Source: Pseudomonadota bacterium (GTDB taxonomy: Bacteria; Verrucomicrobiota; Verrucomicrobiia; Limisphaerales; SXTU01). From it: a stretch of DNA of 64,000 nucleotides. Below the pieces are notes generated by a model. That model saw nothing but the letters and a program-made list of their open reading frames with translations, searched no databases and was not told the DNA's origin. The translations under genes and the position numbers were made by a program. Within the stretch, counting starts at the first letter, position 1, and every line of letters begins with the position of its first letter. The stretch spans positions 1 to 64,000 of the forward strand of contig RFVF01000021.1 in NCBI GenBank assembly GCA_009922615.1, in the 5' to 3' direction. Below are positions 53,342-56,220 of this stretch, piece by piece.

Positions 53342-54049
53342 CTACGTCAAATCCTTGCCGGTGGCCAGGCCGCCGACGGTCCAGTCGAAGTTATACGGCC
53401 CGAAGGGAGAGGTTTGGTTGATGTTATTGTAGAGCGTGTAAGCCGAGTGCCCGTCGGCAAAGTTCAACGGCACGCCTTCCTTGCCGTGCGCGATGATCTT
53501 CGCACCCAGCGGTGACGCATCCGGACTCGCGTAACAGGTCATCATCACCTTCTGCGAGGGAAAGCCCACTTCCGGGGTTCGTCGCTTGCGCAGGGTGTTG
53601 GGCGAATTGTCGTCCCAATAGTATTGCGTCGGATAGTAATAGCTGTTGGGGCACGGCATCTGGTTCGTCGTCATGCCGCCGCCGTTGACGAGAATCCAGT
53701 CGTAATTCCACGGCAGCCCCTTGTCAGCCGCACACAGGTGGAAGCCGCTGTTCGTTCCGATGTAACGGTCCAGCAACTGCCACGTGGTAATGAAGGACAT
53801 TTGCGGCCACGTGGTCGTGCCAAACGGATAACTATCGTCTTAGTCTGACGTGTAAAGCATCTCCGCCAGCCCGAGTTGTCGCAGATTGGATACGCACTTG
53901 GTGGTGTTGGCCTTGATCTTAGCCCGGCTCAACGCCGGCAAAAGCATGCCCGCCAGGATCGCGATAATGGCAACGACCACGAGCAGTTCGATCAGGGTGA
54001 AGGCCGTGCGCGGAATACGCGCCGACGGTGTGACAGCGAGTTCTTTCAT
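53342..54049 (-). pseudogene. Type II secretion-like pseudopilin gene interrupted by one in-frame TAA
   Basis: [29 protein letters not shown]...[11 protein letters not shown]-stop-DDSYPFGTTTWPQMSF...; stop at 53840-53842; both halves in the same frame; H-X9-DG motif (HGKEGVPLNFADGH) retained downstream. Confidence 0.85.
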
Positions 54050-54147
54050 ATTGCCGTGGTGCGAGGCTTTCGCCTCTGCGGGGTGTCGGGCGCAAACTAT
54101 CGGAGTTGGCGGCCTTGTCAACCCTTGCGGGCCATCCGAATCCCGGC

Positions 54148-54176
54148 TTGACCGGCTTTTCCCCGCTGGCTAGTTT
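54148..54176 (+). promoter_or_regulatory. Sigma70-like promoter for the ilvB leader, TTGACC-N17-TAGTTT
   Basis: Hexamers at 54148-54153 and 54171-54176; leader ATG at 54185. Confidence 0.6.
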
Positions 54177-54184
54177 CCCGCCTA

Positions 54185-54262
54185 ATGTTTGGCCTGCTTG
54201 CACAAGTAACACTCGCGGTAGTCGTCGTAGTTGACGACGCCGGCGGGCCTTGTCGGGCATAG
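54185..54262 (+). CDS. ilv attenuator leader peptide [25 protein letters not shown]
   Basis: 25 codons plus TAG; Val codons GTA GTC GTC GTA GTT at 54218-54232, three Leu codons; upstream of a terminator and ilvB. Confidence 0.85.
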
Positions 54263-54310
54263 GCAAGTTTTCGACAAGAACCCACGGCTGGCAGCAGTCG
54301 TGGGTTTTTT
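54239..54310 (+). promoter_or_regulatory. Transcription attenuator: mutually exclusive antiterminator and terminator
   Basis: Antiterminator GCCGgcGGGcCTTGTCG (54239-54255) with CGACAAGaaCCCaCGGC (54272-54288); terminator stem 54281-54290 with 54295-54304, then T6. Confidence 0.85.
54281..54310 (+). terminator. Intrinsic terminator of the ilvB leader
   Basis: CCCACGGCTG-gcag-CAGTCGTGGG (10 bp with one G-T pair) then TTTTTT. Confidence 0.92.
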
Positions 54311-54348
54311 GTTCGCCACGGCCTGTCCGCCAAACCCAAACGCAAGTC

Positions 54349-56220
54349 ATGAGCAAAGCAACCGCAGATCACGCCGAAACGAAGGCCCACTCCACCGACA
54401 AGGCCGAGGTCGGCCCGCGCATGAAGGGCAGCGACATCCTCATCAAATGCCTCGAACGTGAAGGCGTTGATACGATCTTCGCCTATCCCGGTGGCGCGAG
54501 CATGGAGTTTCACCAGGCCCTCACCCGCTCCAAGATTCGCACGATCCTTCCTCGCCACGAGCAGGGCGGTGTCTTCATGGCCGAGGGCTATGCCCGTGCC
54601 ACCGGTCGCGCCGGTGTCTGCATGGCCACTTCCGGTCCCGGTGCCACCAATTTGATCTCGGGCATCGCGGACGCCTACATGGATTCCATTCCCCTCGTCG
54701 CCATCACCGGCCAGGTGCCGCAGGCGATGATCGGCAAGGGCGCGTTTCAGGAGACCGACTTCTTCGGCATGACGCTCCCGATCGTCAAACATTCCTACCT
54801 CGTCACCGACATCGCGGACATTCCCCGCATCATCAAGGAAGCTTTCTACGTCGCGCAGTCCGGCCGGCCTGGTCCCGTCATCGTGGACGTGCCCAAGAAC
54901 ATCCAGCAGGCTGAGACCCAGCCCGTCTTCCCGAAAGAAATCAGCCTGCGCGGTTACAATCCCGACAAGCGCGCCAGCGACCTTGCCCTCAACGAAATCA
55001 TCGGCCTCCTCGAAAAATCCGAGCGCCCCGTCATTTACGCCGGCGGCGGTGTCATCACCGGCAACGCCTCCGAGGAACTCCGCGCCTTCGCCGAACTCAC
55101 CCAAATTCCTGTCACCACCACCATCATGGGCTGCGGCGCGTTCCCCGAGACGCACGACCTCTCGCTGCGTTGGCTCGGCATGCATGGTTCCGCCGCCGCG
55201 AACTGGGCCGTCAGCGGCGAGTTCAAAAAGCGCGCCTCCGTCAACGATCCCATGGTCCCCGTGGCGCCCGGCGCGGACTTGCTGCTGGCCTTCGGCGTGC
55301 GCTTCGACGACCGCGTGACTGGCAAGACCGATGAATTCTGCAAACGCGGCACCATCGTCCACATCGACATCGATCCCTCCGAGATCAACAAGAACAAGCC
55401 CGCCAATCTGCCCATCGTCAGCGACATCAAGTTCGCCCTGAGCAAACTCAACGAGATGCTCCGCAAACGCGCGCTGACCAAAAAGTATTCTGCGTGGGTC
55501 GCCCAGTGTGCCGAGTGGAAAGCCCGCGCTCCCTTCCGCTACACCGCCAATGACGAGGTCGCCCAGTCACAGCACATGCGGGACCACCTCGTCGGCCAGG
55601 AAAAGGAAGTCATCCTCCCGCAATACGCCATCGAACTCCTCTACGAACTCACCGGCGGCGATGCCATCATCACCACCGGCGTGGGCCAGCACCAGATGTG
55701 GGCGGGCCAGTGGTTCAAATACACCTGGCCCCGCCAGTTCCTCACCAGCGCCGGCCTGGGTGCCATGGGCTACGGCTATCCTGCCGCCCTCGGTGCCAAA
55801 GTCGCCTGCCCCAACAAACAGGTCATCGACATCGATGGCGACGGCTCCTTCCTGATGAACATCCAGGAACTCGCCACCGCGCACATCGAAAAGATCGCCG
55901 CCAAGGCCATCATCCTGAACAACCAGCACCTTGGCATGGTCGTGCAATGGGAAGACCGCTTCTATGCCGGCAACCGTGGCAACACCTACCTCGGCGACCC
56001 CGACAACGTGAAAGCCATCTACCCTGACTACGTGGCCATGGCCAAGGGCTTCAGCGTCCCGTGCGAACGTGTGATGTTTAAGAAAGACCTCCGCGCTGCC
56101 ATGCAGCGGATGCTCGACTCCAAGGAGCCCTACCTCCTGGACATCATCACCCCCTACACCGAGCACGTGCTCCCATTCATCCCCGCTGGTCGCACCGTGG
56201 CGGATATGGTCATCCCCTAA
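54349..56220 (+). CDS. ilvB: Acetolactate synthase large subunit
   Basis: [75 protein letters not shown]; ThDP-binding [18 protein letters not shown]. Confidence 0.97.

Follow-up and report, generated by a model that had tools for sequence, protein, structure and literature searches.

Upstream of ilvB, which encodes the large subunit of biosynthetic acetolactate synthase, lies a compact series of elements – a promoter, a short open reading frame rich in valine codons, a set of alternative RNA helices and an intrinsic terminator – whose positions in the 64,000-nucleotide stretch of DNA analysed here (the window) are collected in Table 1. The product of ilvB carries three TPP-enzyme Pfam domains and is the sole match in the genome at an E value of 0.001. 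Extension of the ilvB reading frame upstream to a TTG at 54250 was considered and rejected: the frame would cross the terminator, and in some relatives the available space is too short for such an extension (in L013 the open frame amounts to 621 residues). A second candidate arrangement, an operon in which ilvB is accompanied by ilvN, was ruled out because ilvN and ilvC sit together on another contig (G000:C330:1640-3147) as a separate operon. On the far side of the promoter is a divergent pseudopilin-like gene with a prepilin N-terminus (53342-54121, minus strand), apparently split by a stop codon near 53840.

Table 1. Elements of the ilvB leader region, in window coordinates
Feature	Positions	Strand	Details and basis
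-35 element TTGACC	54148..54153	+	sequence; in 52 genomes TTGAC lies 118-144 nt ahead of the terminator hairpin
-10 element TAGTTT, 17-nt spacer	54171..54176	+	T in 38/51, A in 33/51 and last T in 38/51 at the expected positions
Predicted transcription start	54183..54185	+	at or adjoining the leader start codon; from the position of the -10 element
Leader peptide ORF	54185..54262	+	ATG 54185, 25 codons, stop TAG 54260-54262; sequence and relatives
Segment 1, segment-3 mimic able to pair with segment 2	54200..54206	+	GCACAAG; consensus CGACAAG; degenerate in this genome
Regulatory Val run	54218..54232	+	GTA GTC GTC GTA GTT, codons 12-16; sequence and alignment
Intra-leader hairpin	54221..54238	+	GTCGTC (54221-54226) with GACGAC (54233-54238)
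Segment 2, 5' strand of antiterminator	54239..54255	+	core CTTGTCG 54249-54255; covariation
Segment 3, shared strand	54272..54290	+	3' strand of antiterminator (CGACAAGaaCCCaCGGC) and 5' arm of terminator (CCCACGGCTG); covariation
Intrinsic terminator	54279..54310	+	10-bp stem (12 with two A-U pairs), GCAG loop, T6
ilvB, biosynthetic acetolactate synthase large subunit (regulated gene)	54349..56220	+	NCBIfam TIGR00118, 676 bits (cut-off 538)

The anatomy of this region is that of the attenuator class: a short leader ORF in which codons for one end product of the regulated pathway stand in tandem, a stop codon placed such that a terminating ribosome would mask segment 2, an intrinsic terminator between the leader ORF and the structural gene, and an antiterminator that shares a strand with the terminator, is mutually exclusive with it and is kept by compensatory change. 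An earlier note, made from the letters of the DNA, had described the 25-codon leader with its five consecutive Val codons, and the sequence bears this out to the nucleotide; the leader stop codon lies 86 nt from the start of ilvB. The terminator stem pairs CCCACGGCTG (54281-54290) with CAGTCGTGGG (54295-54304) around the GCAG loop, the T6 tract occupying 54305-54310: the 10 bp, the loop and the tract are as the note had them, but the stem is not perfect, one of its pairs being G-U. Two A-U pairs (54279-54280 with 54305-54306) can lengthen it, at the cost of two of the six T residues. A generic promoter and terminator scanner detected neither this terminator nor the promoter, presumably because the T run is partly taken up by the A-U extension and because the score of the -10 hexamer lies under the threshold. 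The competing stem that the note had proposed, GCCG..GGGcCTTGTCG (54239-54255) against CGACAAGaaCCCaCGGC (54272-54288), is real, with a 7-bp core in which CTTGTCG meets CGACAAG (54249-54255/54272-54278). Among 3000 dinucleotide-preserving shuffles of the upstream region none combined an ORF containing a run of at least four identical V, L or I residues with a strong terminator, and on both strands of the window that combination occurs once, at this locus. The 171-nt region folds with z = -4.0, none of 200 shuffles being equally stable.

Comparison with relatives drew upon 58 genomes, the window's own included, in 55 of which ilvB was found and in 54 of which the DNA upstream was readable. Nine of the relatives share the genus of the window genome, while the rest come from different families of the same order (Limisphaerales, in subdivision 3 of the Verrucomicrobiota). 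A leader and terminator precede ilvB in 53 of the 54 readable genomes of the order. The element is canonical in 52 of them and divergent in one, G040; G041 is the only genome to lack it. Throughout the order the leader peptide, the two stems and the spacing of the promoter are retained. The persistence of the Val run and of the alternative stems among relatives had been set as the test of the attenuator reading; both are conserved, an outcome that favours it.

A simpler account would treat the hairpin as a constitutive terminator or a transcriptional insulator, the Val-rich ORF being incidental. The terminator is certainly the strongest element of the leader – it is paired in 97% of alignment cells, against 28-49% when slid (51 sequences) – and equilibrium folding favours it whatever the state of the ribosome, with few exceptions. 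However, 53 of 54 genomes retain the leader peptide, the position of its stop and the antiterminator, and the antiterminator core covaries despite sitting outside the terminator. In the same 51 sequences the antiterminator is paired in 86% of cells (32-56% when slid); across 94 distinct sequences its 7-bp core is paired in 89% and shows 25 double-sided changes compared to 7.5 in shuffles, a count reached by none of 500 shuffles, with the kinship of the sequences ignored in all such counts. The clearest pair between segments 2 and 3 is C-G in about 65-66 sequences, U-A in 16 and mixed in 10; C or U in segment 2 tracks G or A in segment 3 (p 8e-10 in a simple association test that ignores relatedness). 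In several of the U-A leaders the change has converted CGA to a TGA stop, so that the peptide ends in ..GAC, and segment 3 has changed alongside; rows L066, L069, L092, L095 and L116 of the alignment, for example, pair the new stop with a matching G-to-A substitution in segment 3. Moreover, since the upstream neighbour is divergent, there is no obvious incoming transcript for an insulator to end. The covariation between segments 2 and 3 largely refutes this account, to which we accord next to no probability.

The leader codons speak to the nature of the signal. With leaders aligned at their stops, Val is encoded at codons -14 to -11 in 33, 41, 37 and 39 of 45, and at these codons the third position varies more (entropies of 1.67, 0.67, 1.48 and 1.39 bits) than the first (0.72, 0.00, 0.43 and 0.57 bits), while the codons closest to the stop are constrained where segment 2 is formed. 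This pattern indicates that the Val run is preserved because of what its codons specify, and the tail because of its pairing. The two kinds of constraint overlap within the intra-leader hairpin, which takes in part of the Val run and also covaries (84% of cells paired; 12 double-sided changes versus 3.1 in shuffles). The stop codon itself lies exactly 4 nt past segment 2 in 45 of 52 leaders. The alignment of ilvB upstream regions that the earlier note had recommended thus reveals compensatory change in both stems and synonymous variation in the Val codons, and its suggestion that the attenuator operates in this lineage draws support, at the level of comparative sequence, from order-wide conservation together with these two patterns.

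The same data bear upon the idea that the region is a ligand-binding riboswitch, or a sensor of the ppGpp or T-box type, in which an ORF has arisen by chance. A structured 5' leader does precede ilvB, and a ppGpp riboswitch sometimes controls ilvB in Firmicutes (PMC11109978). Yet the Val run is conserved at the level of codons, which change synonymously; the consensus fold comprises a single terminator hairpin and alternative simple helices, with no aptamer-like core; and no Rfam family attains threshold in the window or comes near it in the leader. A sensor of this sort is exceedingly improbable. Rfam searches of the window at gathering thresholds and of the leader at relaxed ones returned nothing relevant, the ppGpp, T-box and other riboswitch and leader families included. 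The closest weak match, to His_leader (RF00514; 27.1 bits, E 0.016), falls well below the gathering score of 49, and the ilvB leader, which contains no His codons, is not a member of that family.

Three components of the attenuator – the promoter, a probably leaderless start and a segment-1 mimic – are additions to the earlier description. TTGAC served as the search key and its presence in all genomes is therefore by construction; the spacing, the sixth C (44 of 51) and the composition of the -10 box, at positions 23-28 counted from TTGAC, are independent of it. Counted from the first T of TTGAC, the start codon falls at 34-42 nt in all 43 leaders assigned one (within a search range of 29-55), which implies a 5' UTR of about 0-5 nt; the TTGACC/TAGTTT promoter places it 7-11 nt beyond the -10 box. 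From this promoter geometry we infer both the transcription start and initiation on a leader mRNA that is probably leaderless or nearly so. A leaderless start yields a specific prediction, easy to check, as to the way in which the ribosome engages the nascent leader. A TTGACC/TAGGTT promoter pair also precedes ilvN in this genome, and inspection found no attenuator before ilvN-ilvC; attenuation at ilvB would consequently act on the catalytic subunit alone. Inspection of ilvD and of two trpE-like genes found no leader with a terminator.

Segment 1 is a mimic of segment 3. It is paired with segment 2 in 77% of cells among relatives (36-47% when slid), and the copy in this genome has two of the seven pairs broken. 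Folded without a ribosome, the 1:2 pairing is dominant (probability above 0.5) in just 7 of 43 relatives and is weak in this genome. Its presence suggests a four-segment switch.

The leader before ilvB is a real, conserved and almost certainly functional attenuator of a known kind and, very probably, one in which ribosomes set the entry of RNA polymerase into ilvB according to how much charged tRNA-Val and, less strongly, charged tRNA-Leu is available: such is the reading to which these sequences lead. The in vivo switch and its signal, as we infer them, would operate as follows. The promoter would start the leader mRNA at or adjoining ATG 54185, with the ribosome loading on the 5' end. With ample valine the ribosome would reach the stop codon at 54260 and cover segment 2, leaving segment 3 to pair with segment 4; the terminator would then form and transcription would end near 54310. 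A shortage of charged tRNA-Val would stall the ribosome in the Val run, so that segment 1 is blocked and segment 2 bare; the latter could capture segment 3 once made, preventing the terminator and permitting transcription of ilvB. Were there no translation, segment 1 could hold segment 2 in some relatives, favouring termination.

Folding of the complete leader at equilibrium is blind to the state of the ribosome, the terminator winning in nearly every case. The switch must therefore be set during transcription, by order of synthesis, as is the case for attenuators in general, and it is for this reason that we used truncated transcripts, ending in the terminator loop, upon which the ribosome was simulated as a 28-nt mask. 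With the mask in the Val run all 43 genomes form the antiterminator, at a mean probability of 0.87; with no ribosome the mean is 0.67. A mask at the stop codon abolishes it in every one of the 43, an outcome largely dictated by the mask itself.

It might be argued that the leader works mainly on the translation of ilvB, through coupled reinitiation, or by way of a peptide acting in trans, rather than on termination. The C-terminal motif of the peptide, (D/G)A(A/V)GxCR, is well conserved among leaders, and a trans-acting attenuator peptide, peTrpL, is known (PMC7298713). But the conserved C-terminal codons are those that form segment 2, and base pairing thus explains the motif; the 86 nt between leader stop and ilvB start appears a long distance for reinitiation; and the terminator and its U tract hardly vary. 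We judge primary action on translation, or in trans, to be very unlikely.

Forty ilvB upstream regions sampled elsewhere in the class, outside the order, include none with a leader and terminator. In an even sample of the class, model R1 gives a strong full-length match (E <1e-14) in 39 of 42 genomes of the order; outside it the best matches are at most 53 bits, and many of the weak ones, of 20-30 bits, cover the terminator half only. A blind scan of 85,462 species genomes, using a DNA pattern made up of segment 3 and the terminator – and comprising neither leader nor gene – returned 66 matches. In 65 of these ilvB starts within 400 nt downstream on the same strand; in the 66th, where the sequence ends 76 nt downstream, the leader is present. 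A branched-chain-rich peptide was recovered by the leader filter in 63 of the 66, and the remaining three (L074, L090 and L106) correspond to genomes with visible leaders.

Several side observations emerged from these searches. Eight loci (L056, L061, L064, L073, L080, L103, L107 and L108) belong to public MAGs labelled Akkermansia muciniphila, Omnitrophota, Acidobacteria or Proteobacteria; given that they carry the order-specific element and an ilvB that is 69-95% identical, the record titles look misassigned. Outside the order, one genome (L167, G195:C14) has a Val leader of related type, MNQVLVQLVTISVVVVSDSAAVELCA, in front of ilvB; it is the sole instance encountered there and may reflect transfer or ancestral retention. 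Also outside the order, Val-rich leaders with terminators stand before SAM-dependent methyltransferase genes in G141 (L168:481-619) and G195 (L170:469-589); their peptides are MFGIAKAVVSVAVVAVIGAAVADARA and MIKVSVAVVAVSDPAVVDYCA.

The genome contains a second attenuator (G000:C236:42854-42982, equivalent to L159:455-583; R1 match 26.9 bits), located before leuA, the gene for 2-isopropylmalate synthase (NF002991, 818 bits; TIGR00970, 730 bits). Its leader encodes a Leu-rich peptide, VNDILNLRLSLCALLDGAAVGF, the last codons of which can pair with the terminator arm. As in the ilvB leader, segment 2 is formed from the last leader codons, the terminator is GC-rich and, where the promoter is clear, the promoter-to-start spacing of leuA leaders is the same, such that the leuA leader of this genome is probably leaderless too. 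Unlike the ilvB leader, it has Leu rather than Val codons, a different terminator arm (CCCCACTGCC) and a 2-isopropylmalate synthase gene behind it. Nine more genomes have the arrangement, before either type of leuA; eight belong to the order and the ninth, G123, to a different order of the class. A plausible, if tentative, conjecture is that the two leaders belong to one RNA family of Verrucomicrobiota, order-wide and so far undescribed, in which a leaderless four-segment leader-peptide attenuator of single origin has been copied or retuned between Val (ilvB) and Leu (leuA).

Among enterobacteria, ilv/leu attenuators control ilvB, ilvGMEDA and leuABCD. The ilvB leader described here resembles them in its branched-chain-codon leader peptide, its alternative antiterminator and terminator, and its putative four-segment logic; it differs in that Rfam models detect no similarity, the mRNA is probably leaderless and ilvB has no ilvN behind it. 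The attenuators of actinobacterial ilvBNC operons likewise combine a short uORF rich in branched-chain codons with a terminator and antiterminator, precede a gene for the same enzyme and follow a ribosome-stalling logic (PMC10272879, PMC11857589, PMC13236596), and the Corynebacterium ilvB-II motif also has an anti-antiterminator (PMC10272879, PMC11857589). They differ in sequence and lineage, in mixed codons such as LVVI as opposed to the pure Val run seen here, and in that ilvB is here apart from ilvN-ilvC. For M. tuberculosis ilvB1 a classical attenuation mechanism has recently been supported (PMC13236596). In Streptomyces coelicolor, by contrast, swapping of the candidate regulatory codons before ilvB is cited in PMC1262725 as being without effect, a reminder that leader anatomy alone can mislead.

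With regard to precedent, a broad survey of 2010 knew leader-peptide attenuators only from Proteobacteria and Actinobacteria and added Firmicutes (PMC2965389); a comparative survey by Lopatovskaya and colleagues from the same year is cited in PMC4833913. Two large RNA-motif papers report ilvB motifs in Corynebacterium and Leptospira, Verrucomicrobia being absent from their main text. Literature linking Verrucomicrobia to leader-peptide attenuation of ilvB was not found, subscription literature lying outside the scope of the search, and publications naming both Verrucomicrobia and a leader peptide concern, by title and abstract, other subjects. The earlier note knew of no description from Verrucomicrobiota-like bacteria and, short of a full literature search, no earlier report has come to light: the mechanism is classical and, as far as we could search, the lineage is new.

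A supported family of this kind in a largely uncultured phylum broadens the known range of ribosome-mediated attenuation and carries the implication that these bacteria couple transcription to translation. It also provides a handle – leader peptide, terminator and covariance model – for annotating a gene found in many environmental genomes. Should the single-origin family prove true, ribosomes would load on a transcript that has no 5' UTR, and the two leaders, at ilvB and at leuA, would together allow the common branched-chain step and the leucine branch to be controlled separately.
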